Positions 3,703-20,833 of a stretch of 64,000 nt of DNA are shown piece after piece (within the stretch, counting starts at the first letter, position 1; each line of letters opens with the position of its first letter). Under the pieces are notes generated by a model. It searched no databases. It was given only the letters and a program-made list of their open reading frames with translations, and was not told the origin of the DNA. The stretch is taken from positions 3,286,001-3,350,000 of the forward strand of contig NZ_CP107575.1 in assembly GCF_025854375.1 (NCBI RefSeq), written 5' to 3'. The DNA is from Glutamicibacter sp. JL.03c (GTDB taxonomy: Bacteria > Actinomycetota > Actinomycetes > Actinomycetales > Micrococcaceae). The position numbers and the translations under genes are program-made.

Positions 3703-5023
3703 CTACTGGCTGGTGTGCTCGCGCGGTAGTGCTGGCGGGGCTTGATCCGCCGAGATCGGCCGGGGGCGCGGCGGGTGTGTTTCATACTTGCGGGTAGCGA
3801 CGATCAGCCCTGCGGCCATGCTGAGTGCGGCTGCCATCAAGATGCTGGCGTTGAGCCCGAAGAGATCGGCGACGATCCCTCCCAGGATCGCACCGGCGGC
3901 ATATCGAGGTCACGCCAGACGCGGAAGATTCCCACGGCGCGTGCTCTCCATGCGGGATGGGCGACGTCACCCACCGCCGCCAGCATTGTGGGGTAGACCA
4001 TGGCGGTTCCCGCGCCGAGCAATACGCTTCCCGAGGCCCAGGCGCCAAAGCCGCCCCCGATCGCGATGATCGACAGGCCGGCGGCCTGGACCAGCATGCC
4101 GGTGCTAATCAGGTGTTTGCGTCCTATCCGGTCAGAAAGGGCACCGGTCGCGATTTGGCCTATTCCCCAGACTCCTGGATAGAGGGCGAAAATTAGGCTG
4201 GTCTGGCCCAAGTCGAGATCCGCGGTGGCGAATAGCAGGGGAAACAAGACCCAGGAGAGCCCAAAGTTCAGGTTGTTCACCAGACCGGCCAAGCTCGCTG
4301 AGGACAAGGCAGGTTCCCGGAAGCTGGTCAGGGAAAAGATCTGCTTGTTGGTGAGCTTGGCATCCAGGCCATGTCCAGCGGAGGCGCCCTGGCTCTTCAT
4401 GTTTCCGGCATCCAGGAGGGCGTGAGGGCGGGTCTCGCGAATGAAAAGACTCGACAGCAGAAGTGCCAAGGAGGTGTAGGCGAGGCCCAAGAGGAAGGGA
4501 GCCGGACGCAGTCCGTACTGTTCGGCAAGGTATCCGGCCAGCAGGGACGTGACGGCCACGGCACCGTAGCCCGCTGCCTCGTTCAGGCCCATGGCCAGGC
4601 CGCGCTGTGCCGGGCCCACCAGATCGATCTTCATGATGACTGTGGTCGACCAGGTCAGGCCCTGGTTGATGCCCAGCAGAACGTTCGCGGCAACGATCCG
4701 GCTCCAGTCTTCGGCAAAAATGAGCATGAGCGGCACGGGGATGGCGAAGAGCCAGCCGGCCAGCAGCACGGGCTTTCGTCCGTAATGCTCGGAGAAGGTT
4801 CCGGCAATCCAGTTGGAGGTCGCTTTAGCGATCCCGAAAGCCGCCACGTAGGCAAACAAGAACGTGTACCCACTCACACCGATGAGGTATGGGCGAGCAG
4901 TGGCAGGACGGCTTGCTGCTGCCCGACCATTCCCCCGACCAGCGCGTTGATCGCGACGAGCAAGATGAACTGCGCTGCATTGGCGCGCAGCCCCAAGAGC
5001 GGGCCGGGGGCGGATTGTTTCAT
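3703..5023 (-). pseudogene. MFS transporter with two frameshifts
   Basis: The coding stretch starts at ATG 5023 behind GAGGAG and runs MKQSAPGPLLGLRANAAQ; near 4893 the frame breaks after QQQAVLPLL and resumes as YLIGVSGYTFLFAYVAAFG. Near 3933 it breaks again after VWRDL and resumes as YAAGAILGGIVADLFGLN, ending at 3703. Total length (about 440 codons) and 10-12 hydrophobic segments fit a complete major facilitator transporter. Both breaks are single-base changes; either the gene is dead or the assembly has two errors. It lies between the TauE exporter and DUF302 genes, suggesting a former role in sulfur-compound export. The middle part (346 codons) is open. Confidence 0.75.
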
Positions 5024-5077
5024 ATGCGGGCTCCTCGCAACACGGGATGGGAAAACTGGCTCGTAAGAGACCCGCGG

Positions 5078-5974
5078 CTAGTGTGACTCGGTCGTCGAAG
5101 CGGCAACAGGAGGTGTTAGCGATTTACGTCGCAGTGGACATGCGGGAATCGCAAACCAGCACAGAGTCGCGGCTGCGGCGATTGCGGTGGCCGCGAGGCC
5201 CATGACGATATTGGCTGGGGAGGGTAGTTCCTGGACAAGCACGAAGATTCCCATGGCCAGGACGAAGAAGCCGAACCCCTTGCGCAGGGCGGCTTCTGGA
5301 ATGCGGCCGGCCAACCTGGCGCCCAGGAAGGAGCCGAGGATCGCGGTGGCTGTGACTGCACCGACAAGTGTCCAGTCAAGAGTGACAGTAGTAAGGTAGC
5401 CGCCAAGTCCGGCGAAGGACTTCATGGCGATGACGACCAGCGACGTTCCGACGGCGACGGGCATCGACAGGCCGCCGAGCAGGGCGAGTGCCGGGACGAC
5501 GAGGAAGCCACCGCCGGCACCAACCAATCCGGTGACCAGGCCCACGACCAGTCCCTCGGCAATGACCTTGAATACCGGCAGTTCGTTTTCGCGGTGGGTG
5601 CCGGCATGGTTCTTGCGGCCGCGGATCATGGCTAGGGAGGTGGCAACCATCATGAGGGCGAAGGCGATCATGAGGATGAATCCGGGGATGAATCCACCGA
5701 GCAGGCCGCCACCGAAGGCCCCGGCCATGCCGGCTGCGCCGAAGACGAGTCCGGTGCGCCACTGCACATGCCTATTGCGGGCATGGGTCACGGCACTGAC
5801 GACGGAGGTCGCTCCCACCACGAACAGCGAGGCAGCAATGGCTTCTTTGGGGTTCATGCCCGCGACGTAGGTGAGTATTGGGACGGTGAGGATGGACCCG
5901 CCCCCACCGAGCAATCCGAGGGAGATCCCGATCAGCACCGAAAGCAAGAGGGTCAGCACGAGGGTAAATGTCAT
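5078..5974 (-). CDS. TauE/SafE family sulfite/anion exporter
   Basis: About 298 residues from the ATG at 5974. It has the duplicated TauE/SafE architecture: an N-terminal GLLGGGGSILTVPILTYVAG and a second-half copy GLVGAGGGFLVVPALALLGG, each in a run of membrane helices (8 or so in total). Family members export sulfite, sulfoacetate or other organic anions across the membrane. Beside an MBL-rhodanese and rhodaneses, a role in removing sulfite or thiosulfate made by persulfide oxidation is the likely one. The upstream in-frame start at 6055 would overlap the rhodanese gene and is less likely. Confidence 0.85.
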   Translation of the reverse strand: MTFTLVLTLLLSVLIGISLGLLGGGGSILTVPILTYVAGMNPKEAIAASLFVVGATSVVSAVTHARNRHVQWRTGLVFGAAGMAGAFGGGLLGGFIPGFILMIAFALMMVATSLAMIRGRKNHAGTHRENELPVFKVIAEGLVVGLVTGLVGAGGGFLVVPALALLGGLSMPVAVGTSLVVIAMKSFAGLGGYLTTVTLDWTLVGAVTATAILGSFLGARLAGRIPEAALRKGFGFFVLAMGIFVLVQELPSPANIVMGLAATAIAAAATLCWFAIPACPLRRKSLTPPVAASTTESH

Positions 5975-6032
5975 GGAAGGGGGCCTTGTCTGGGGAAGAA
6001 GTTCGCGGGCGGGGTGGCATTGGTGCGTGGCT

Positions 6033-6329
6033 TTAGTCGACGGGCAGGCCGGCACGTTGCCAGGCGGTCATGCCGCCAGCCATGGTGTCGGCGGTGAAGC
6101 CAGCGCCGGTGAGTGCTTCGGCGACGCGGGCGCTGCGGTTGCCGCTGCGGCAGACGACGACGATGGGGCGGTTTATGTCGATTTCGTCCAGGCGGGTGTT
6201 GAGCTCTCCCATGGGAATATGGATGGCTCCGGGGATCATGCCCTCGGTGATTTCGAAGTCTTCGCGGACGTCAAGGATTTGGTCCGTGGCAGGTCGGCGG
6301 TTGGTGTCGGTGATGGTGATTTCGGGCAT
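6033..6329 (-). CDS. Single-domain rhodanese
   Basis: 98 residues, one rhodanese domain. The active-site loop CRSGNRS has the catalytic Cys at residue 60, and the domain starts with the DVRE motif (residues 20-23). Rhodaneses carry sulfane sulfur as a Cys persulfide and pass it to an acceptor. It is cytoplasmic and lies in the sulfur cluster between the DUF2892-rhodanese and the TauE exporter. Confidence 0.9.
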   Translation of the reverse strand: MPEITITDTNRRPATDQILDVREDFEITEGMIPGAIHIPMGELNTRLDEIDINRPIVVVCRSGNRSARVAEALTGAGFTADTMAGGMTAWQRAGLPVD

Positions 6330-6447
6330 GGTGTGCTCCTTTGGGTGAGTTCAAGCGGCATGTGGGTGCTTTCCGGGCCCGAAGCAATACGATCCGGGCC
6401 TGGAAACCGGGAGAAATCCGGTGGGCGGCAGCCCAGCAGGGTGTGTT

Positions 6448-7032
6448 CTAGGGCTTCTTGGAGGGAAGCTGGGCGAAGACCGACGCGCGGGTCGGTTCGT
6501 TGGCGGTCCTGTTCCACGGCATCTTGGACAGGGCTTTGCCCATGGCGCAGGTGTTGGTGGCCGCTGAGAAGGTCAACCCGGCCCCGATGACCCCTGCAAC
6601 GGTCCGGATCTGCGGGGAAAGGAACCTGCCCCCGGCCAGTCCGGCGATTACCAGGGAACCGGCGGCCATGCGCACCTGGCGTTCCAGATCCCAGCGCTTG
6701 GAGCCTTCAACGATCCGGCCGCCGGCTTGCTTGTAGGCCGGGACGCCGCCGGCTAGGACGTGGGCGTTGCTGAATCCGGCTGACGCGAGGTTGGTCTTGG
6801 CTTCGGTGGCGCGCACGCCGGATTGGCAGACCAGCACCACTTTGGTGTCGAGCTTCGATGCGAGTTCTTCGGTGTGCTCGGCCAGCAACGGGAGGGGAAC
6901 GTTGTAGGAGCCCTTGATATGCAGGGATTCGAATTCGGCGGCGGATCGCACATCCAGCACCACGACGTCGGTGCCGGCATTGATCCAATCCTTGAGTTCT
7001 TCGGGGCTGGTGGTCTGGGGGATGGTGTTCAT
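6448..7032 (-). CDS. Rhodanese-DUF2892 membrane protein (YgaP-like)
   Basis: 194 residues. Residues 1-105 are a rhodanese domain with active-site loop CQSGVRA (Cys 69). The rest (about 115-194) is a DUF2892-type region with hydrophobic segments AAGSLVIAGLAGG and VAGVIGAGLTFSAATN ending in a CAMGKALSKMPWNR motif. E. coli YgaP has the same layout and is a membrane-anchored sulfurtransferase. Start chosen at ATG 7032; longer readings extend into the neighbouring gene without a ribosome site. Confidence 0.88.
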   Translation of the reverse strand: MNTIPQTTSPEELKDWINAGTDVVVLDVRSAAEFESLHIKGSYNVPLPLLAEHTEELASKLDTKVVLVCQSGVRATEAKTNLASAGFSNAHVLAGGVPAYKQAGGRIVEGSKRWDLERQVRMAAGSLVIAGLAGGRFLSPQIRTVAGVIGAGLTFSAATNTCAMGKALSKMPWNRTANEPTRASVFAQLPSKKP

Positions 7033-7147
7033 AGGGGTGTGGGCCTTTCTGCCAGGCGTATCGCCCGGCCGGTCCCGCATCGGGAAAAGCGATGAGGGAC
7101 CGGGGAATACGTGGAATTTTCTTATTGAGAGCTGCGCGCAGGAGAAC

Positions 7148-8545
7148 TTACGCGTTCTGCATTTGCTTCCAGTCCGCCCAGCCCGCGTAGCTGCCCTCGA
7201 GTTCGACCACGTCGAACCCTGCACGGCGCAGCGCGGCGGCGGCCACTGAGTTGCGGACTCCGGACTGGCAGTAGCTAACGATGACTCCGTCGGACGGAAG
7301 CTGATCGGTGTGCCAAAGCACCCGTCCTGCATTGAGCTGGGCGGAGCCAGGCACGTGCCCGGAGCTGTGCTCGGTCTTGTTGCGAACGTCCAAGACCATG
7401 GCTGCCTCAAAGCCTGCCAGATCGGCGGGGGCGATCGTCGGGGGAACATAGACCGGCAGGTTGTCCAGGGACGTGATGAATCCGGCGACCTTGTCGATGC
7501 CCACGCGGATGAGATGGTCCCACATCTCCATGGCGCTTCCGTTGTCCGGAGCCAAGAGCACCAGCGGGCGCTGGTCTGTTTCCGGGTCAACGGCCCAGGC
7601 GCCGAAGCTTGCGGCCTTGTTACCTGCCGGGATGTTCAATGCTCCGGCGGCGGTGCCCTGATGAACCTCGCAGTGGTGGCGGGTGTCCACCACGCCGATT
7701 TCGTCAGCGGCCAAGCTGGCGGCTACATCCGCGGCGTCCAGTTGAACCAGCGGTGCGCGGTCGCCCAGCACCACCGGACCCTGACGGTTCTCGCGCTTCA
7801 TTCGTCCAAAGTAGGCGTGGGCGTCCGGCTGCCCGTCAAGCAATGCCTGGATGAATCCTTCTTCGTCGTTCGCCTTGAGGTAGGGCCCCCACCAGGCGAA
7901 GTTGCGCTCGTATCCGACAGTGGAAGAAGGGATCGCGCCCAGCGCCTTGCCACAGGCACTGCCAGCCCCGTGCCCTGGATAGACCTGCACGTAATCGGGC
8001 AGAGTCAGGAACTTGGTTTGCAGCGAAACGAACAGGTCGTGGGCCCCGGCAAAACGGGTGTCGATACCGCCGGCAGCCTCGTCAAGCAAGTCAGGTCGGC
8101 CTAGATCACCGGAAAAGACGAAATCACCCGAGAGCAGGAAACCCGGCTCGTCGCTGAAGGCGCCGTCGGTCACCAGGAAGGAGAGGTGCTCGGGAGTATG
8201 CCCGGGGGTGTGCAGAGCGGTGACGATGATGTTTCCCAGGGTGATGCTGGATTGGTCAAGGAGGCGTTCGGCCTCGAATTCGTATTGCCAGTCCGGCCCG
8301 CCCTCGCCCGAAACGTAAATCGCCGCGTTTGTGGCGGCAGCCAGCTCGCGGGTTCCGGAGAGGTAGTCTGCGTGGATGTGGGTCTCGGTGACAGCCACAA
8401 TGTTCATGCCGTTTTTCGCTGCAAGGTCCTGATAGACCTGGATGTCGCGGCGGGCGTCCACCACTAGCGCCTCGCCCTTTGCCTGACAGCCGATGAAGTA
8501 GCTGGCCTGCGCCAGGTCCTCGTCATAGATCCGTTCGAGAAGCAT
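7148..8545 (-). CDS. cstB: MBL-fold persulfide dioxygenase-rhodanese (CstB-like)
   Basis: 465 residues with three parts. Residues ~1-240 are a metallo-beta-lactamase domain (THIHADYLSG, HTPGHTPEHLSF, SGDFVFSGDLGR, YPGHGAGSACGK). Next comes a rhodanese-like domain without a catalytic Cys (DTRHHCEVHQGTAAGALNIP), then a C-terminal active rhodanese with CQSGVRN. This is the arrangement of staphylococcal CstB, which oxidises low-molecular-weight persulfide to thiosulfate. The AAGGAGAA ribosome site precedes ATG 8545. Its promoter carries CstR-type operators, so it is the first gene of the sulfur operon. The symbol is by analogy of architecture and context. Confidence 0.87.
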   Translation of the reverse strand: MLLERIYDEDLAQASYFIGCQAKGEALVVDARRDIQVYQDLAAKNGMNIVAVTETHIHADYLSGTRELAAATNAAIYVSGEGGPDWQYEFEAERLLDQSSITLGNIIVTALHTPGHTPEHLSFLVTDGAFSDEPGFLLSGDFVFSGDLGRPDLLDEAAGGIDTRFAGAHDLFVSLQTKFLTLPDYVQVYPGHGAGSACGKALGAIPSSTVGYERNFAWWGPYLKANDEEGFIQALLDGQPDAHAYFGRMKRENRQGPVVLGDRAPLVQLDAADVAASLAADEIGVVDTRHHCEVHQGTAAGALNIPAGNKAASFGAWAVDPETDQRPLVLLAPDNGSAMEMWDHLIRVGIDKVAGFITSLDNLPVYVPPTIAPADLAGFEAAMVLDVRNKTEHSSGHVPGSAQLNAGRVLWHTDQLPSDGVIVSYCQSGVRNSVAAAALRRAGFDVVELEGSYAGWADWKQMQNA

Positions 8546-8578
8546 TGATTCTCCTTGTGCTTTGCTAATTTACCTTCG

Positions 8579-8637
8579 ATACCCCCAGGGGTATCTATTT
8601 CACAACCAACAGTAATACCCCCGAGGGTATGTGTCAA
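8579..8637 (-). promoter_or_regulatory. cstB promoter with two CsoR/CstR operators
   Basis: On the minus strand a consensus -35 TTGACA (8637-8632) and a -10 TACTGT (8614-8609) are 17 bases apart. The spacer is filled by the palindrome ATACCCCCGAGGGTAT (8615-8630), so a bound repressor would block RNA polymerase. A second copy, ATACCCCCAGGGGTAT (8579-8594), lies just downstream. Both have the AT-flanked C-tract/G-tract form typical of CsoR-family operators. Confidence 0.85.
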
Positions 8638-8654
8638 CCCATTCTGAAATGCGT

Positions 8655-8699
8655 AAAAAAGCGGCGATCCGCACCACGGGAAGTGGTACGGATCGCCGC
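8655..8699 (-). terminator. Rho-independent terminator of the Cys-rich mini-protein gene
   Basis: A 17-base stem (8661-8677 with 8683-8699, one mismatch, loop GGGAA) is followed on the minus strand by six T residues (complement of 8655-8660). It separates the mini-protein transcript from the cstB promoter. Confidence 0.85.
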
Positions 8700-8719
8700 G
8701 GGCGAAAGCGAGGTCGAGC

Positions 8720-8896
8720 CTAACGACCCAGGAGACGCGCCAAGAGGCCGCCTTTACCGACCGGCACCTTCTGGGCATTCTGACCACAGGAGCAACGCTC
8801 GTTCCGCGGCACATGGGCCATGACTTGCTTGACATGCTGGCCGCACCCGGCCCAGGTGATTTTCTGGCACTTGCAGCATTTGGTCGTGCGGCACAT
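8720..8896 (-). CDS. Cys-rich small protein, possible zinc or sulfur binder
   Basis: 58 residues starting MCRTTKCCKCQK behind a strong AAGGAG site, stop at 8720, followed at once by a terminator. Six or seven Cys occur in CxxxxxCCxC, GCGQHV and RCSCGQ settings, together with a His, which resembles a small zinc-ribbon. The tail is basic (GKGGLLARLLGR). Similar short Cys proteins are found in actinobacterial genomes as hypothetical proteins; I know of no assigned function. A CsoR/CstR-type operator in its promoter puts it in the persulfide regulon. Confidence 0.75.
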   Translation of the reverse strand: MCRTTKCCKCQKITWAGCGQHVKQVMAHVPRNERCSCGQNAQKVPVGKGGLLARLLGR

Positions 8897-8962
8897 ACGG
8901 CAACTCCTTGCATCTAAGGCATCAACGGAGGGCTGAGCACCCCCTGCACTCGAGTATGCCAT

Positions 8963-9028
8963 ATACCCATAGGGGTATCGAGAATCACTTGGCCAGCACT
9001 GCCATGGAAACCCCTCGGGGTATATAAT
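8963..9028. promoter_or_regulatory. Divergent promoter region with two CsoR/CstR operators
   Basis: ATACCCATAGGGGTAT (8963-8978) lies in the promoter of the minus-strand mini-protein gene. AAACCCCTCGGGGTAT (9008-9023) touches a perfect -10 TATAAT (9023-9028) for the plus-strand repressor gene; a weak -35 CTGCCA (8999-9004) is 18 bases upstream. The repressor should therefore control itself and its neighbour. Confidence 0.8.
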
Positions 9029-9059
9029 CGAAGAGACTAACTCCTCGAAAGGACCCACA

Positions 9060-9317
9060 ATGCAACTTGAAGCGGAATCCATGAGGCCGGCCATTAACAG
9101 GCTTAAGCGCGCCCAGGGTCAGCTGAACGCCGTGATCCGCATGCTGGAGGAGGGCAGTGACTGCCGGGCGGTCGTCACCCAGCTATCCGCTGCATCCAAA
9201 GCCATCGATCGCGCCGGGTTCTCCATCATCTCCACCGGCCTCGAACAGTGCCTGCAAAGCGAGGATCCCACGGCCGACCGCGCAGATATGGAAAAGCTCT
9301 TCCTCTCGCTTGCCTAG
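9060..9317 (+). CDS. cstR: CsoR-family repressor, CstR-like persulfide sensor
   Basis: 85 residues, the usual size of the DUF156/CsoR family of four-helix DNA-binding proteins (RLKRAQGQLNAVIRMLEEG at the N-terminus). The two sensing Cys are present (Cys35 in DCRAVV, Cys64 in LEQC). The position of the copper-ligand His of CsoR, four residues before the second Cys, is Gly. A Cys-Cys pair without that His is the signature of CstR-type sensors that form polysulfide cross-links rather than bind Cu(I). The surrounding persulfide genes and four matching operators support this. Ribosome site GAAAGGACC before the ATG. Confidence 0.88.
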   Translation: MQLEAESMRPAINRLKRAQGQLNAVIRMLEEGSDCRAVVTQLSAASKAIDRAGFSIISTGLEQCLQSEDPTADRADMEKLFLSLA

Positions 9318-10029: not shown

Positions 10030-10464
10030 TCTTGGAATGTGCCGGTGAGAACAAGGCAATTCCCGAGCGCTTATGCTGCCGGTTGTACCGCGGCACATAT
10101 TCCGCCAGATAGGTGCGGGGCATCTTCGAAGATGGCGAAGACTTTCGGGTACCCATGACGATACCTCCTGGTGCGGAATCCGGACTCGCTGAAGGAATTG
10201 CCGTTGGACACATAGGGCCTGTTATGGCCTAACTGGACGCCATGGGCTTCCAGCGCATTCTTCACCGCGTTGGACTTCATTGCTGCCCCCCGGATCGGCG
10301 TGCACGAAGATGGGCGCACCGAAATCCTTGAACGCCTGCTCGAACATCTGCGCGGCCGGATGGCCAGCTTCGCGCTCCTCCACCCGGTATAACACGATCT
10401 GCCGGGAGAAAATATCAATGATCGATACGGCCTTGAACGCCTTGTTCTTGTAAGGCGAGCACAT
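10030..10464 (-). pseudogene. Remnant of an IS3-type transposase (integrase core)
   Basis: The C-terminal half of an rve/DDE transposase is readable in shifting frames: SIIDIFSRQIVLYRVEERE, then FGAPIFVHADPGG, a frame change to RPYVSNGNSFSESGFRTRRY, and another change to YVPRYNRQHKRSGIALFSP. The order matches IS3-family OrfB, with the catalytic Asp blocks and the SES Glu block. At least two frameshifts are present and the N-terminal part is absent, so it is dead. No ends identified. Confidence 0.75.
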
Positions 10465-10711: not shown

Positions 10712-11101
10712 TCATTCTTTTAGGAATGCGATGGCATCATCAAATTTAGTGACGTATTTTGTGATCTTAGCGTTAGAGAGGTCAGCCATCAGAAAACCAG
10801 AAAGCACCTGATCGACATGGCTGCTCCCAAAGAGCGCCAAACGAGTCGATTCTGGTGCCGCGCTCAGGCGCGCAGCCACATCAGGACACACGTCTACTAG
10901 TCCACCTAAATGCACGATTACACGGATGCGGTCATCTTGATGTTGCCTACGATATTGGCTATCGATTTCGTCGAGCATGAAGCAATCGAGCGTAGTGCCT
11001 TGGGTGAAATTAATTTCATAAAATTCTGAATCACCGCGATTCATTGTCCATTGAGGTTCTACGATCGGTGTTGACGGTGAATCTAGCGGCTGGATGATCA
11101 T
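10712..11101 (-). CDS. Small STAS/SpoIIAA-like (DUF7793-type) protein
   Basis: About 129 residues from ATG 11101, which has a good AGGAT..GGGGAA ribosome region; the longer GTG start at 11131 is less likely. The pattern is that of SpoIIAA/STAS-like proteins: beta-strand, helix, then VIVHLGGLVDVCPDVAARLS, a RLALFGSSHVDQVLSGFLM core and a final KYVTKFDDAIAFLKE (compare the F.....ALAWL tail of this group). Such proteins are usually regulators or anti-anti-sigma-like; the exact family is uncertain. It lies 111 bases downstream of the GGDEF-EAL gene on the same strand and may share its transcript. Confidence 0.65.
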   Translation of the reverse strand: MIIQPLDSPSTPIVEPQWTMNRGDSEFYEINFTQGTTLDCFMLDEIDSQYRRQHQDDRIRVIVHLGGLVDVCPDVAARLSAAPESTRLALFGSSHVDQVLSGFLMADLSNAKITKYVTKFDDAIAFLKE

Positions 11102-11212
11102 TGTTCCCCATATCCTGATCGCTGAAATCACCGAAGTAGCTTGTTTTGGAAGCTGAGGCGAATGTCACTTTATATTTTATGGAAACAGCCTACCCTACGG
11201 TTAGTGAACTTA

Positions 11213-12739
11213 TCAGGACCGTTCCAAGGGAGGTATATAAAAGCCAGGTTTTCCGTAGAGGTAGCCTTGGAAATAAGTGGCTCCAATATCATGCAGTGCA
11301 GCTTCCTGCCCCTGGGTTTCCACGCCTTCCACAATGCAATCTAGTTCGCATGCTCGTCCTAAATCCAGCACAGAACGCAATATAGACCGTTGCATTGCAC
11401 TGGTATCTATTTCGGTTATCAGTGAACGGTCAATCTTCACTCCGGCGATCGGAAGCTTGTCAAGATAACCAAAAGCGGAGTACCCGGCCCCGAAATCGTC
11501 AATGTAGACCTTAACGCCCATGCTCTGGAGCCCTCTGAGTGAATATAGTTCAAGGCTTCCACCTGAAATGTATTCGTTCTCAGTGAGCTCAATGGCTAGA
11601 GAAGAGGCGGGTATCTGATACTCCCGCAACTGACTTTTCACGATGTCAGGAAATGCCAGATTATTCAGTTCTGAAGGCGTGACGTTTATATGCATGCGAA
11701 ATTCTTCAGTGACACTTCCATTGGCTCGCCACTTAGCCAGATCGGCAAGAGCTCCAGAAAGGATCCGCTCAGTCAATCTATGGTCCAACCCCGCACTGGT
11801 TGCCAATGGCAGAAAATCACTTGGTGGCAGAATTCCTAAACTCGGATGAGACCATCGAGCCAATGCTTCTACACCTACATGCTTATCGGTAGCCGAGCTA
11901 ACGATCGGTTGGTAGATCGGATAGATCTCTTTACGTTCTAGAGCTGTGCGCAATTCGGAACTGAGCGTAGCTTTATATTGTCGTTCATGGAGCATGTACT
12001 CTTCGAACTGTTGAACTTTACTGATATTTCTGCGTTTGGCGACATACATCGCTGTATCGGCTTGTTCTATCCATTGTTCGAAGTGCTGGGACGGTGCACA
12101 TGCACTGAAACCGATACTTCCACCAGGTGTAATGACCGATGAACCGATGTTCATTGGCTCATGCAGCGCGTTGAGGATCCGATGCCCCATTGTTTCCGCT
12201 GCAGCGACATCAGTGTGTGCCAGGATAGCAAATTCGTCGCCACCTAAACGGGCCGCAACATCTCCTGGGCGAATATTCTTCTTCAAGCGCTTCGCGACTT
12301 CCTTGAGAACTAAGTCGCCGGCATTATGGCCCTGGGTGTCATTGATGTGCTTAAAGGAATCGAGATCCAAAAGAAAGAGGACCGCTGAAGGCTCACCTCG
12401 ACCCAGAGCAGCTAAGTGGGCATCAAGTTTACGCAGAATTGCAGCGCGATTATCCAGTCCGGTCAATGCATCGGTAAATGCGAGAACCTCAAGGTCGCGT
12501 CGGGCCACTTCCAATAATTCAGTTCGTTGCCGGACTCGCTGTTCTAAAGCATCGTAGGTTGCTTCCAGCCTTACCGACATAGCCTTAATGCCGACGATGA
12601 TTGCATCCACCTCGTCACGTAGTGGACTTGGAGATAGTGAGACTGAAAAGTCGCCAGCGGAGATCTTGACTATTGATTCAACGATCTCTTGGATGCGTGG
12701 ATCAGAATCCGCCAGTGACATTCTCTCTCGATTCATCAT
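11213..12739 (-). CDS. Cytoplasmic GGDEF-EAL protein (c-di-GMP cyclase/phosphodiesterase)
   Basis: About 508 residues. The N-terminal ~60 residues resemble a HAMP-like helical linker plus coiled coil (ALEQRVRQRTELLEVARRDL). A GGDEF domain follows with an intact GGDEF motif (AARLGGDEFAIL) and LDLDSFKHIND. The EAL domain keeps GVEALARW, NVTPSEL, ELTEN, IDDFGAGYS, VKIDRSL, EGVET and QGYLYGKP, so both activities could be real. No membrane segment, signal peptide or PAS domain is visible, so its input must come from a partner. The start is ambiguous (12739, 12736 or 12721); all overlap the end of the TPR gene, implying translational coupling. Confidence 0.9.
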   Translation of the reverse strand: MMNRERMSLADSDPRIQEIVESIVKISAGDFSVSLSPSPLRDEVDAIIVGIKAMSVRLEATYDALEQRVRQRTELLEVARRDLEVLAFTDALTGLDNRAAILRKLDAHLAALGRGEPSAVLFLLDLDSFKHINDTQGHNAGDLVLKEVAKRLKKNIRPGDVAARLGGDEFAILAHTDVAAAETMGHRILNALHEPMNIGSSVITPGGSIGFSACAPSQHFEQWIEQADTAMYVAKRRNISKVQQFEEYMLHERQYKATLSSELRTALERKEIYPIYQPIVSSATDKHVGVEALARWSHPSLGILPPSDFLPLATSAGLDHRLTERILSGALADLAKWRANGSVTEEFRMHINVTPSELNNLAFPDIVKSQLREYQIPASSLAIELTENEYISGGSLELYSLRGLQSMGVKVYIDDFGAGYSAFGYLDKLPIAGVKIDRSLITEIDTSAMQRSILRSVLDLGRACELDCIVEGVETQGQEAALHDIGATYFQGYLYGKPGFYIPPLERS

Positions 12740-13712
12740 TCTTCTCGTGGACAATTTGTGTGATGTACTTCTGTTTTTCGTCCGCAAGCTCGGGTTGATC
12801 CGTGAGGGCCAGCAATTCTGACCGGCACCGGTACAACGGGATGAGGTGTTCAGAAGAACCCGAATAGTCAGCACTAAATTCCTCGAGCATCTTCAGTCCT
12901 AGAATAGGGTCTCCGCCTAAGGCTACGAACCGGGACTTAGTCATGCACAATCCCACCCGGTCTAATTCTCCGGGCTGGACCAGCCCGAAAGCGATCTCGG
13001 CTCTACTAAGGCAATCGCTGGTGGCGGGTTCGAGCAGGCCCGCTTGCAATCTGAGCTCTGCTGAAGCTCTATTGAAACGTGCCCAAAGCAGCATGTCTTT
13101 CGTCGGGCTAAGCAGTGTCGCCGCCCTGTCATGATAACGCATGCCCAGAATGGACTCTGAAACCAAGAACGCCAGATTTCCCAACGTCCAGTAGGCCTTA
13201 CCCTGTTCATGTAGATCAGCGATCAGGTGAAGCGAGCTATCTAGCAAATTGTGCAGTTTCCATGCCTCATGTAGCTGGCCAGTTTCTACTAGGGCGGCCA
13301 GAAGGACTTGGAGAACTTGAACGCGCAATGGGGAACTATCGGGAAAATTAGCAGCCTGTACACGCGCGTCTTCAGCTAGGTCCAGCGCTGCGCCTCCATC
13401 ACCTAAGCATCTTTTGGCCGTCGAAGATTTACACAAAGCCATGATATGCAGGTCAGGACGGTCCATGAGATGTGCGGTATGCAGCAACTCTTCAGCGAGG
13501 GTATTCATCAGTTCGTAGTTGTCTGTCTCGTGCGCGGCAGTACAGATAGCTTCCTGTACAAGCCATACTGTTGAAGGATCCGTGTTTGGCGACATCTGAC
13601 TAAGCATACTTTTGCCCAGAATAATCACCGCATCGTGGTCTTTAAGTCGCACGTTACTCAGCAGCTTAGAGACCAGCAACTGGAAAGAGGCTGAAGGGAG
13701 TGTTGGGTTCAT
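12702..13712 (-). CDS. TPR-repeat protein, candidate peptide receptor or regulator
   Basis: 336 residues made almost wholly of paired helices of TPR type (repeated W/L..A..L..G..A/Y patterns, e.g. KAYWTLGNLAFLVSESILGMRYHDRA in the middle and LLEPATSDCLSRAEIAFGLV later). No helix-turn-helix or enzyme motif is seen, which recalls the Rap branch of the RRNPP peptide receptors rather than the DNA-binding branch. It overlaps the downstream GGDEF-EAL gene and is divergent from a small exported-peptide gene 134 bases away. No Shine-Dalgarno is visible before ATG 13712 and an A/T-rich -10-like ATACTA lies just upstream, so the mRNA may be leaderless. The receptor role is inference from context. Confidence 0.7.
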   Translation of the reverse strand: MNPTLPSASFQLLVSKLLSNVRLKDHDAVIILGKSMLSQMSPNTDPSTVWLVQEAICTAAHETDNYELMNTLAEELLHTAHLMDRPDLHIMALCKSSTAKRCLGDGGAALDLAEDARVQAANFPDSSPLRVQVLQVLLAALVETGQLHEAWKLHNLLDSSLHLIADLHEQGKAYWTLGNLAFLVSESILGMRYHDRAATLLSPTKDMLLWARFNRASAELRLQAGLLEPATSDCLSRAEIAFGLVQPGELDRVGLCMTKSRFVALGGDPILGLKMLEEFSADYSGSSEHLIPLYRCRSELLALTDQPELADEKQKYITQIVHEKNDESRENVTGGF

Positions 13713-13846
13713 GTATGTAGTATTTCATTGTCGACCCAAGCAGTTGTCGGGAGTCTGGGCATTCACTAAAATTAGGCACGACGCTCACTATGTTCTCAGT
13801 GCGTCGTGTCGCATAGCAGCTTTTTACAATTGAAGGACGCACACCC
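13713..13846. promoter_or_regulatory. Divergent promoter region with perfect inverted repeat
   Basis: Arms CACGACGC (13777-13784) and GCGTCGTG (13801-13808) form a perfect 8-base inverted repeat with a 16-base spacer, placed between the TPR gene and the peptide gene. A -10-like TACAAT lies at 13825-13830 and a TATGTT at 13789-13794, so a protein bound here would cover one or both promoters. It could instead form an RNA hairpin. Confidence 0.5.
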
Positions 13847-14011
13847 ATGATGAAGAAGTTCAAGAAGTTACTAGTTTTGGCGGCAGCAGTCGTGGCGTTG
13901 CTGGTTGGTGTAACCGTCAATGCTCCAACACAAGGTGATACTGATGCCGGTGGATTGTGGCCTTATAAAGCCTCCGTTACAAATCCAGCAGGTGGGCTCT
14001 GGCCATACTAA
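13847..14011 (+). CDS. Small exported peptide with two AGGLWPY repeats
   Basis: 54 residues, ribosome site GAAGGAC 8 bases before ATG 13847. Residues 1-26 are a classic signal peptide: MMKKFKK, hydrophobic core LLVLAAAVVALLVGVTV, then VNA as a possible cleavage site (the Pro that follows is unusual for signal peptidase). The remaining 28 residues contain AGGLWPY twice (34-40 and 48-54), the second copy forming the exact C-terminus. The two copies use different codons for five of their seven residues (GCC/GCA, GGA/GGG, TTG/CTC, CCT/CCA, TAT/TAC), so the amino acids rather than the DNA are conserved. A strong terminator follows. I read it as a pro-peptide giving a short secreted signal; a structural or antimicrobial peptide is possible. 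Confidence 0.8.
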   Translation: MMKKFKKLLVLAAAVVALLVGVTVNAPTQGDTDAGGLWPYKASVTNPAGGLWPY

Positions 14012-14154
14012 GAGTGCTTTGCTCGCTTCTTTGATTTACCCGTCGTAAATCGATTCAATCCCGAGTACGCCATGGACCTTGTCTAGTAACTTCAGTAGCC
14101 GGGAGGCAACTCTCCGCGTCGACGTATCTACCGATTGAGGTCCGTGCAGTCAAT

Positions 14155-14205
14155 TGCTCCCTGAAAGTTGGGCTGTAAAAGTCAACAACTTTCGGGGAGC
14201 ATTTT
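14155..14205 (+). terminator. Rho-independent terminator after the peptide gene
   Basis: TGCTCCCTGAAAGTTG (14155-14170) pairs with CAACTTTCGGGGAGCA (14186-14201), one G-T pair, and is followed by TTTT. It lies 144 bases after the peptide stop; that spacer holds no open frame I can support. Confidence 0.85.
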
Positions 14206-14301
14206 CATGCGTGCCCGAAGCACACTATCCGAGTACCAATTTGTGAACTTCTGAGTTGGTCAAGTTTCTAGGACACGATCTTTGATCTTTTCTAAATATT
14301 C

Positions 14302-15258
14302 TCAAGCCGCCAAGGCTAAAGAAATTCTCTCCTGGTACGAGTCCAGAATCGCCTGGGGACTGACCCCGCCATTAGCGGTATGCGGGCGCTTCCGGTTGTA
14401 CCAAACCTCGATGAACTCCATCACCGCGGTACGCGCTGCCACCCTGCTAGTGAAAGCCCGGTGGTGATACATTTCGTTCTTGATCGTCGAGAAGGCTGAC
14501 TTGACTCTGCGACAGAATTGTCCCAGCACACCCCCGTGCGGCCCATGGACTGGCGCACGCCATGCGCAGCGCACCACCTCTGGAACGCGTCGGAGGTGTA
14601 TTGCGTGCCCCGGTCGTTATGGAACACGCTGCCAGGCTGGATGAAGCCTCGCGACGCGGCAAGCTCCATCGCATCAATGACCAGCTGCGTCTGCATATGC
14701 TCAGCCATAGACCAGCCCACGATCTGACGTGAATACAAGTCGATCACCGTGGCCAAGTACAGCCATCCCTCACCGGTGCGCAGATAGGTGATGTCACCGA
14801 CCAGTTTCGTTCCGGGCCGGGACGAACGGAAGTCGCGCCGGCCGAGCTTGTCGACCATGTGGTTCTTGATATGCGCTGTTCGCGCTTGGTGGTCACGCAC
14901 CGTCGTGGTTTTGAAGGCGCTCATTCGTTTGGCCTGGATTCCTAGTTCTTTCATGACCGAGAGAACTGTGGATTTCGGTATCCGAATGTTGTGGTTGTTA
15001 AGCAGCAGATCCACCAATTGGCCGGCGCCAGCGACCTGGTTGGATGCGGCGAACTCGGTTTGGACCAGTTCGGTACGGCGGATCCTCAGAGCTTTGGCTT
15101 CGCTAAGGTCCTTTGGCGGGTTCACCCATCGGTAGTACGAGGCGCGGGAAACGCTGAGTTTCTGGCACATCCAGTTCACCGGGTACTGGTTTCTGTGTTC
15201 TTTGATGAAGGTGAAGACTGCGCTTATTTCTTGCTGTTCGAGGCGAAATAGGCGCTGA
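14302..15258 (-). pseudogene. IS3 OrfB transposase, frameshifted
   Basis: Integrase-core transposase with HTH_21-like N-terminus (YPVNWMCQKLSVSRASYYRW), catalytic blocks VGDITYLRTGEGWLYLATVID, VFHNDRGTQYTS and CWDNSVAES. After VAES the frame is lost and the tail (STIKNEMYHHRAFTS to the ISLALAA end) continues in another frame. The cause is visible: a tandem TGACTTGACT at 14497-14506, a five-base duplication; removing one copy restores AESAFSTIKNE. Expression would normally need a frameshift from OrfA near 15250. Confidence 0.85.
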
Positions 15259-15517
15259 CATCTTTTAAAAAGTCGTTCTCCCGTTTCACCTCCAGCAGTT
15301 CTTTTCTCAGCTTCTCGTATTGGGCCCATTCCACTGGTCCGCGTTCCTCTGTTTCAGCTTCAGGATGCTCGGCGCGGTAGGAACGGACCCAGTTGCCCAA
15401 GGTCCGTTCGTTGATGCCCAGGGATGCTGCGACTTCGATCAGGCTTTTCTGGGATGAGATCACCAGTTCAACTGCTTCGGCGCGGAATTCCGGGGTGAAT
15501 TTCTGACGTTTGGACAT
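15224..15517 (-). CDS. IS3 OrfA (HTH/leucine-zipper) protein
   Basis: 97 residues, intact: HTH_Tnp_1 pattern (QKFTPEFRAEAVELV, ASLGINERTLGNWVR) followed by a coiled coil (YEKLRKELLEVKRENDFLKD). It binds the IS ends and is made alone or fused to OrfB by frameshifting. It overlaps OrfB, which is broken, so the element cannot move on its own. Confidence 0.9.
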   Translation of the reverse strand: MSKRQKFTPEFRAEAVELVISSQKSLIEVAASLGINERTLGNWVRSYRAEHPEAETEERGPVEWAQYEKLRKELLEVKRENDFLKDVSAYFASNSKK

Positions 15518-15710
15518 GCACTCATTCTCCTACGAACGCGTGTCTCACAACATCTCTAATGGTTCTTGGCAGGTCTGGGACCCGCTGGCAAGATAGATGC
15601 CACCCACCACGATGTGACTCATCACAACATTGTCTTCACAAGTGAGTGGATGACTTGGACATGACCTGTCCGTCAGGGTGGGGGCACCAATCCGGCCACT
15701 TGATATGGCT

Positions 15711-16895
15711 TCATAGAAGGTTGTCCACTCCCTGACTGGGCGTGTGACTCATTAGAGATCCGCCTGTCAAGTACTTCTCCCGGACCGGTGCCAACCGTAA
15801 CGGCCACACACCGCAGAAGGAGGCGAAACCGTCATGACCATCGTTGTAGAAAAATACGATTACGTCATCGGAATCGATACTCACGCACGAACCCACACCT
15901 ACGCCATTATCAATACCCGCACCGGCAGCAGGGAAGCTTGCCAGACCTTCCCCGTCAGTGCCCCGGGGATGAACGGAGCCGTCGCCTGGATCCAGCGCAA
16001 TACGGAAGGTCGGTGTATCGCCGCAGTCGAAGGAACCCGATCCCACGGGGCGACGATCACCCACGCCCTGACCGAGCACAAGGTAGCAGTCGTCGAGGCG
16101 AAACCGCCACGGAGAAAAGACCAAGCCGGCCGAGGAAAATCAGACCAAATCGACGCGACCGCCGCAGCCCTGAGTTTGCTACCGAAAGACATCACCAAGC
16201 TGCTGCAACCACGTGATGAAGGTGCCAGAGCGGCCCTGAGCATCCTCTCGGCTAGCCGCGCACGGATCGATGCCCAACGAACCGTGAACCGCAACTCGCT
16301 CTCAGCGCTCATGCGTACCTACGACTTGGGAATTGATGCGCGAAAGCCATTGAGCGCAGCCCAGATCAAGCAGATCAGCAGTTGGAGAGAGCATGAGGCT
16401 GACACGATAGAGCAAAAGTTCGCCCGGGACGAAGCGAAATTCCTGGCGGCAAGCGTCATGACCGCTGACCAGATGCTGAAGGAGAACAGCCGAGCTATGT
16501 CTGAGCTCGATGAGCAACTCGCGCCGGCACTGCAGCAGGACTTCGGCTTAGGACCTATGACTACAGCATGGATTCTCATGGCTTATTCTCACCGTGGGCG
16601 TGTTCATTCTGAAGCCGCGTTTGCCGCTCTGGCTGGTGTTGCTCCGTTGCAGGCTTCGTCGGGAAACCATGAACGCCATCGCCTGAACCGTCATGGAGAT
16701 CGCAATTGAACCAGGCGTTGGACGTGGTCGCGCGGACGCGGATGGGGCATGACGCCGCGACGAAACGCTATGTTGAGAAACGTACGGCTGAAGGCTTGAG
16801 TCCGAAAGAAATCAAACGGATCCTCAAGCGCTATATCGCCCGCAGCATCTATCGGAAGTTGGAGGTTCTTATGGCTTGACAGTAGTCATAGAAGG
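15711..16895 (+). mobile_element. IS110-family element (putative limits)
   Basis: The ten-base direct repeat TCATAGAAGG occurs at 15711-15720 and 16886-16895, flanking the transposase. IS110 elements lack inverted repeats and have short direct core repeats at their ends, so these may mark the limits. The 113-base leader before the transposase would be the place for a bridge-type guide RNA, though it is short for one. Confidence 0.5.
15834..16879 (+). pseudogene. IS110-family DEDD transposase, frameshifted
   Basis: The N-terminal RuvC-like DEDD domain is clear (GIDTHARTHTYAIINTRTG, VEGTRSHG, AGRGKSDQIDATAA). The C-terminal Transposase_20 domain begins at FGLGPMTTAWILMAY. The open frame stops at 16709 after HGDRN, but the normal continuation QLNQALDVVARTRMGHD runs on in the next frame to a stop at 16879 (KLEVLMA). 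One missing base (CGCAATTG where CGCCAATTG would keep the frame) explains it. Likely inactive unless the sequence has an error here. Confidence 0.85.
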
Positions 16896-19574: not shown

Positions 19575-19703
19575 ATTTCTCCAACCCCATGAACCAACGA
19601 CACCACACAACGCACTACGACACGAACACACCCACCACCGTGATTCTTCGTTGTGAATCGTCCCGGGTTTTATGCCGTTTTCTTATGAGAGAGAATGGAA
19701 AGC

Positions 19704-20015
19704 ATGCCCAAGCAGTACACCCCAGAAGTCAAAGCCCGCGCAGTGGCCTACGCCCTGGAACGCCTTGACCGATACAAGTCGGTCTATGCCGCGTGCGCTG
19801 ACATGGCACCGAAGCTGAATGTCGGTAAAGAGACCCTGCGCCGCTGGGTCCTCCAAACGCAAGTTGATGCGGGTGAACGTTCTGGGCCGACTAGCGAGGA
19901 ACTCGCTGAAATCAAAGCACTCAAAGCTAAGGTCCGGGACCTTGAAGAAGCCAATGACATTTTGAAAGCGTCAGCAATTTTCTTCGCGAGGGAGCTGGCC
20001 CCTCGCCGACACTAA
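19704..20015 (+). CDS. IS3 OrfA protein
   Basis: 103 residues (or 106 from an ATG at 19695). It begins MPKQYTPEVKARAVAYALE and carries a helix-turn-helix (LNVGKETLRRWVLQ) and a C-terminal coiled coil (EIKALKAKVRDLEEANDILK) ending FFARELAPRRH, all typical of OrfA in this group. Intact, but its partner OrfB is truncated. Confidence 0.88.
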   Translation: MPKQYTPEVKARAVAYALERLDRYKSVYAACADMAPKLNVGKETLRRWVLQTQVDAGERSGPTSEELAEIKALKAKVRDLEEANDILKASAIFFARELAPRRH

Positions 20016-20555
20016 TCACCGAGTTCATTGACCAGCAACGCGAGCACGGCCACGCAGTCCAGCAGATCTGTCAGGCCCTGAATACTCAGGGTTTGAAGGT
20101 TTCTGCGCGCACGTATCGCAGCTGGAAGAGGAAGGAGCCGGCACCACCAGTCGTCACGGACGCAATTGTTTTGAATGCCCTGCATGATCTGCAACAGCCT
20201 GATGAGAAGACCGGCAGGCCGAAGCCTGAGGTGCTGTATGGTCGACGGAAAATGCGGGCCTGGTTGCAGCGCAACGGGTTCCCTGATGTTTCGAAGCACG
20301 CCGTGGACCGGCTGATGCGCGTCGCTGGGATGAAGGGTCTGGTGCGGGGCCGGAGAACGACGACGACGATCCGTTCAAAGGATAAGATCAGGGCGAAGGA
20401 CCTGTTGAATCGGAACTTCTCTACTGATGCCCCTAACAAGGCTTGGGTCACCGATTTTACCTATGTTCCGATTCGGGGCGGGTTTGCTTACGTGTCCTTC
20501 GTGATCGACTTGTTCTCCCGCAGAATCTTGTCCTGGGCTTCGTCAACCTCGCATC
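20012..20555 (+). pseudogene. IS3 OrfB transposase, truncated
   Basis: Starts as LITEFIDQQREHGHAVQQIC overlapping the OrfA stop, and reads through HTH_21 (VLYGRRKMRAWLQRNG, VDRLMRVAGMKGLVRGR) to the first catalytic block WVTDFTYVPIRGGFAYVSFV and IDLFSRRILSW. After that the reading is unrelated sequence, so the second and third catalytic residues are missing. Confidence 0.85.
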
Positions 20556-20833
20556 TCCCCTGGCGGCCTAGGCATACACCTTCAACACGATGTGACCCTC
20601 GAAACCAGAAAATACGATTGATCATTGCAAAGTACGCCACAAAAACAGCGCTTTTCAAACTGATCACTGCGAATGCCATTTCGAGGAGATGGACTTCGAC
20701 GTCCGAATGCTGACGCTCTTTACCCGACTTTAGCAAACCCGAAGTGCAGAAGTACCGCTGCGCCCCGGAATGATCGGAGACTCAGCGGTCATTAATCAAA
20801 CGATGATATATCTGGGTTAGGAGGTTAGAACGC
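20556..20833. other. Intergenic remnant
   Basis: The 280 bases between the truncated transposase and the end of the ATPase gene. No gene, hairpin or repeat that I can support; presumably the joint of past rearrangements. Confidence 0.4.

Follow-up and report, generated by a model that had tools for sequence, protein, structure and literature searches.

Firmicutes and their mobile elements are known to use linear peptides that are re-imported and read by tetratricopeptide repeat (TPR) receptors. A survey of these RRNPP systems (PMC10075063), in the part of its text available to us, analyzed Firmicutes and viruses only and describes signals in Actinobacteria as typically small molecules made by enzymes; its signature for an RRNPP system is a pro-peptide of 10–100 amino acids with a Sec signal, a receptor of ~250–500 amino acids with TPRs, and adjacency of the two genes. 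The corresponding part of a review (PMC4748050) gives cyclic or modified peptides and gamma-butyrolactones as the usual actinobacterial signals, with cyclic di-GMP (c-di-GMP) among the signals listed. Here, we describe a locus of Glutamicibacter sp. JL.03c (Micrococcaceae; genome of 3.59 Mb in one contig), located in a 64,000-nucleotide stretch of contig NZ_CP107575.1 (positions 3,286,001 to 3,350,000; hereafter the window, with coordinates counted from its first base), that probably encodes an RRNPP-like peptide-pheromone system, in a Rap-like form without a helix-turn-helix (HTH) domain, acting on a c-di-GMP enzyme. The quorum sensing of PMC4748050 belongs to the same phylum, but that part of the review describes no exported linear peptide read by a TPR receptor. 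A word search of PMC9765709 for 'actino' gave nothing, and a literature search that left aside most subscription papers and all bioRxiv preprints gave no actinobacterial peptide–TPR system among the matches listed, the motifs occurring only in one unrelated paper.

The locus comprises a gene for an exported-like pre-peptide of 54 amino acids (13847–14011, forward strand), with orthologs in three other genomes of the genus, and a gene for a TPR protein of 336 amino acids (12702–13712, reverse strand), the putative peptide receptor. Pro-peptide length, receptor length, predicted TPRs, and gene adjacency all agree with the RRNPP signature. The HTH-type receptors of this group (PlcR, Rgg, and NprR) have an N-terminal HTH, whereas the window protein has none; compared with Rap–Phr of Bacillus, the window system is actinobacterial, its peptide gene is divergent, and its neighbor is a c-di-GMP enzyme. 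The original prediction, made from the bases of the window alone, had described a 54-residue pre-peptide carrying AGGLWPY twice, once at the exact C-terminus, and lying divergent from the TPR gene across 134 bases; open reading frame (ORF) coordinates and sequence agree on each point. The two copies are at 13946–13966 (residues 34–40) and 13988–14008 (residues 48–54, directly at the stop codon), on the forward strand. The N-terminus (13847–13924) is predicted to be signal-peptide-like by a rule of charge and hydropathy only, a basic stretch being followed by a hydrophobic one, and cleavage would fall after VNA. An AAGGA nine bases 5' of the ATG bears out the good ribosome site that had been claimed.

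A recount confirmed that the two AGGLWPY copies of the window differ at six bases in five of seven codons, all silently. The eight copies in four genomes comprise seven distinct DNA sequences with at least 15 changes, every one of them silent, when 25% of random single changes are expected to be so. Between the window and its closest relative (G004), changed codons of the peptide gene hold six base differences in the first 33 codons and none beyond. The AGGLWPY residues of the peptide are under purifying selection. A second GGLWPY match in the same genome was dismissed as chance, its frame having neither a signal sequence nor a repeat.

The AlphaFold2 model of the TPR protein (pLDDT 90.7) consists of 16 helices in TPR-like hairpins. 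A Pfam scan of the window protein gave no match, and TPR_2 was matched by five of the 14 members (window included) of an alignment of HTH-less homologs, from which one of 15 loci was left out; the window protein has no HTH. Predicted fold and TPR_2 matches thus uphold the earlier assignment as a TPR protein without DNA-binding domain. By receptor, the closest named relatives are Glutamicibacter ardleyensis (60% identity) and G. creatinolyticus (52%).

Searched independently, a GGxWPY-stop peptide and an orthologous TPR protein (E below 1e-100) were found in the same four of 18 genus genomes, and the peptide orthologs adjoin the TPR gene in the three relatives (G004, G010, and G009); a fifth TPR match in the genus (G013, E 8e-8) is of the HTH type. 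The pattern GGxWPY-TRR matched 35 of 395 family genomes, mostly through TGG (Trp). Matches ending in TAA or TAG (G000, G004, G009, G010, G046, and G054) were taken as true and all lie beside TPR genes; TGA-ended matches in G284, G166, G169, and G105 stand outside these six counted genomes. A search with the window TPR protein itself matched 35 places, all of them examined, in 26 of 98 genomes, its own among them. A fixed rule, which asked for a divergent ORF of 35–150 amino acids within 1.3 kb that starts with a basic and hydrophobic stretch and has W-P among its last 25 residues, detected a peptide at 26 of the 35 loci, namely 14/15 HTH-less and 12/20 HTH-bearing ones, with one doubtful case (L091), and at 0/35 in the same-strand control. 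Three more loci (L086, L088, and L095) have W-P ORFs without a recognized signal. A second collection was limited to the best 80 of 266 loci, nearly all from Arthrobacter and Pseudarthrobacter with Glutamicibacter, Paeniglutamicibacter, and Zafaria; there the rule detected a divergent peptide at 80/80 loci (same-strand control 0/80), and a looser rule at 79/80 (control 1/80). Control genes in the same loci gave 11 matches in 368, two of them true second TPR–peptide pairs; these tandem pairs (L172 and L173) carry different cores, of the GNWPD and DDWPH types. Because the loci are related, these counts do not represent independent events. Among the observations that would speak against it, the original prediction had named a lack of conservation, in relatives, of the small ORF next to the TPR gene; the pairing is kept across the family and, in another form, beyond.

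The core is repeated within 92 of 106 peptides and varies between them (GGLWPY, GGNWPY, GNWPD, GDWPH with up to six copies, GWWPN, NNWPL, and others). Peptide and receptor distances correlate across the 25 loci compared (Mantel r 0.49 overall, 0 of 5000 permutations; r 0.23 among pairs below 50% identity); this correlation is mostly a product of shared ancestry, and we do not take it as support for binding. A locus with an Arthrobacter-like TPR gene, a W-P peptide, and a GGDEF-EAL gene (L125) was also seen on a contig labelled Vibrio cholerae strain 35D, an assembly that is probably contaminated or mislabelled.

Twenty of the 35 family loci encode a receptor with an N-terminal XRE-type HTH (Pfam HTH_31 and HTH_3 in 18 of 19 aligned members) and 15 a receptor without one, and the two types differ in their neighbors. 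Within stretches of 10–12 kb (15 kb for the locus of the window), a GGDEF-EAL gene was present at 14/15 HTH-less versus 0/20 HTH-bearing loci, and a STAS-like gene at 12/15 versus 0/20. At three of the 14 (L066, L070, and L081) only part of the GGDEF-EAL gene lies inside the stretch; with closer limits the gene stands beside 11/15 HTH-less genes (Fisher p 3e-6). A count of four HTH-less loci without GGDEF-EAL was wrong for three, where the gene sits farther out, behind polysaccharide genes. In the second collection, which includes a few shorter stretches, GGDEF-EAL accompanied 10/10 HTH-less and 0/70 HTH-bearing receptors, one of the 70 being cut off by a contig end. In the loci examined, the linkage is exclusive to the HTH-less type, and it persists down to ~25% identity. 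Because the HTH-less form makes up one side of a (weakly supported, 48/55) branch, the pattern of gene neighborhoods probably reflects one old linkage event kept through divergence.

Three arrangements were found: GGDEF-EAL next downstream, upstream past the peptide gene (L073 and L087), or farther downstream behind polysaccharide genes. Clusters at 5/15 HTH-less loci contain a CBM5/12 protein and a glycosyltransferase 2, with a weak GH18 match below cut-off in one; the glycosyltransferase matched cellulose and poly-N-acetylglucosamine (PNAG) synthase models, well below their cut-offs. Polysaccharide synthesis is a likely output of the HTH-less system. A search for the CBM protein in the JL.03c genome, run without a positive control, gave nothing.

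The window GGDEF-EAL gene (11213–12739, reverse strand) encodes a soluble HAMP-GGDEF-EAL protein, likely of 508 amino acids (Pfam HAMP; GGDEF, E 2e-40; EAL, E 6e-65). Its catalytic motifs are intact (RLGGDEF, EALARW, DDFGAG, VKIDR, EGVET, and QGYLYGKP), and among 15 complete GGDEF-EAL ORFs examined (13 distinct), all have RLGGDEF and either EAL or EVL, with one further motif lacking in one. The protein had been described as devoid of a sensor domain and translationally coupled to the TPR gene. From its likely start, the ATG at 12739 (longest ORF to 12874), it overlaps the 3' end of the TPR gene by 38 bp, and hydropathy gave no membrane segment in its first 150 residues; the description needs amending for a HAMP-like region at residues 60–105 (Pfam). 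The longest ORF of a small STAS/SpoIIAA-like, DUF7793-related protein (10712–11131, reverse strand) begins 81 bp past the GGDEF-EAL gene; its Pfam match is weak (E 0.011, below cut-off), and it is homologous to the relatives' neighbor genes. The STAS-like gene is part of the same unit as the TPR and GGDEF-EAL genes. Among the 18 genus genomes, the STAS gene occurs in the four with TPR and peptide genes and in G003, where a 14 kb stretch has a GGDEF-EAL and STAS pair but no TPR or peptide gene. The G003 enzyme (G003:C23:184886-186851, L236) has KARARW at the EAL position, and its phosphodiesterase half may be inactive. PADLOC gave nothing for four window proteins.

The proposed analogy to RRNPP receptors was weighed by structure and by profile. 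A structure comparison matched the window TPR model over its full length to NprR and Rap proteins. The N-terminal three-helix bundle of Rap binds a response regulator; the alignment of the window model starts at Rap residue 42 (4gyo), 38 (4i9c), 4 (3q15), or 9 (6t46). The HTH-bearing relatives combine an XRE HTH with TPRs and a neighboring exported-like peptide, as do receptors of the PlcR/NprR/ComR type, from which the W-P cores set the window system apart. Their HTH-TPR profile found three engineered TPR proteins first, then PlcR (E 6.9e-10, over the HTH and first TPRs), as well as ComR (6e-5) and 5w4m/5w4n, listed only as transcriptional regulator. Several results weigh against the analogy: non-bacterial TPR proteins score above NprR and Rap in the same fold comparison, neither Rap nor NprR is among the 50 Foldseek matches listed for the model, and much of the PlcR and ComR score belongs to the common HTH, because HTH-only proteins score nearly as well. 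No sequence match to a Rap chain was found. AimR and PlcR chains are absent from the 50 matches listed in the comparison with NprR and Rap, an absence that is no sign of a difference. The analogy is strengthened by the PlcR match and the full-length fold, and weakened by the higher-scoring TPR proteins and the Foldseek result.

In the reading that we propose, the pre-peptide would leave the cell, probably through Sec, and be trimmed to short peptides sharing a GGLWPY core, which would be re-imported, probably via an oligopeptide permease; ten SBP_bac_5 genes in the genome make such uptake possible but say nothing further about it. The product of the divergent TPR gene, a cytoplasmic protein, would bind the peptide in its concave groove and, having no DNA-binding domain, may act through direct contact with the soluble HAMP-GGDEF-EAL protein encoded downstream, the STAS-like protein possibly taking part. 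The c-di-GMP level would thereby be set, upward or downward, and in some relatives may be linked to the cellulose/PNAG-synthase-like glycosyltransferase. It is gene linkage that ties peptide and TPR protein to c-di-GMP here.

Exported-like peptides, and polysaccharide genes at several loci, would also suit a peptide that acts outside the cell, as an antimicrobial, matrix component, or surface ligand, with a separate role for the TPR protein and no binding between them. We consider this unlikely: the cores are short and mostly repeated, W-P being common to them and the flanks variable, and in the four genomes where two systems were typed they differ, both of which look like ligand specificity; how a TPR protein lacking an HTH would act on a promoter is not evident. 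Even less probable, in our judgment, is that the peptide probes export and import capacity or the state of its own cell rather than serving as an intercellular signal; the molecular parts would be identical and the anatomy resembles a Phr-type export–import circuit, although the present data do not separate self-sensing from cell-to-cell signaling. A third alternative makes the TPR protein a scaffold for the GGDEF-EAL protein, or its sensor of some other ligand, and leaves the peptide gene as an unrelated neighbor. The GGDEF-EAL and STAS pair of G003 speaks for it, but the peptide gene goes with the TPR gene in both branches, even at loci with no GGDEF-EAL in the stretch, and we regard this explanation as very improbable.

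The HTH-TPR profile (E <= 1e-20) was also searched in 296 genomes of the class and matched 34 of them at 37 places, 33 outside the family, 27 of which came with their locus and were examined. A divergent small secreted ORF with W-P near its end or a terminal CC was present at 16 of these 27 loci, 14 ending in CC (for example DWPGMCC, NWPTMCC, and HPPTCC), compared with 2/27 on the same strand and 4/54 downstream as controls. Because the CC criterion was added after the data had been seen, these counts need an independent sample. Two of the downstream matches end in VWCC, in small secreted ORFs of L203 and L204 that lie on the opposite side of the HTH-TPR gene from the other loci. The HTH-TPR protein had no match in phages and 16 weak matches in plasmids, 14 of them in Streptomyces; three plasmid loci inspected contained no W-P peptide by the rule. 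We lean slightly towards an old actinobacterial pheromone superfamily of W-P core or C-terminal CC peptides with divergent HTH-TPR receptors, of which one Micrococcaceae branch would have lost the DNA-binding domain and become a direct c-di-GMP/exopolysaccharide switch.

The divergent spacer of the window (13713–13846) contains a promoter-like site (13744–13772, forward strand) and the perfect inverted repeat that had been noted between the genes (CACGACGC/GCGTCGTG, 8-nt arms, 13777–13808). The repeat is present as described, but it is common to the window and G004 only; because it is absent from the G010 and G009 counterparts, it has no support as an operator, and that role was rejected. When 23 of the 68 spacers between the peptide and HTH-TPR genes of L105–L181 were aligned (126–144 bp, from close relatives), a strongly conserved block of ~45 bp (TTGACA...TGTCAA) emerged, which may serve the HTH form as operator or promoter. 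The peptide gene had been credited with its own terminator; a strong hairpin does follow (14152–14204, forward strand; z -6.1 for 14140–14215), but a consensus scan found no terminator and an insertion sequence is close by; the hairpin may be terminator-like or insertion-sequence-associated. Transposase-like ORFs, IS3-like and IS110-like as named by eye, lie on both sides of the locus (10071–10464, 14302–16709, and 19695–20713). The GC content at third positions is 0.46–0.55 in the three larger genes of the locus versus 0.74–0.81 in five upstream genes (3837–9317), and some other window genes are also low (0.51–0.52). The window copy of the locus was probably acquired horizontally. At 7148–9317, a metallo-beta-lactamase/rhodanese-type protein and a small CsoR-like protein, both named by eye, resemble a sulfide-handling operon.

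The core peptides are open to immediate synthesis and testing. If the proposed reading is true, this actinobacterial counterpart of RRNPP signaling would provide a new signal set in a phylum for which we found no such linear peptide signaling described, and the HTH-less branch, tied to a c-di-GMP enzyme, would connect a peptide signal directly to the biofilm messenger.

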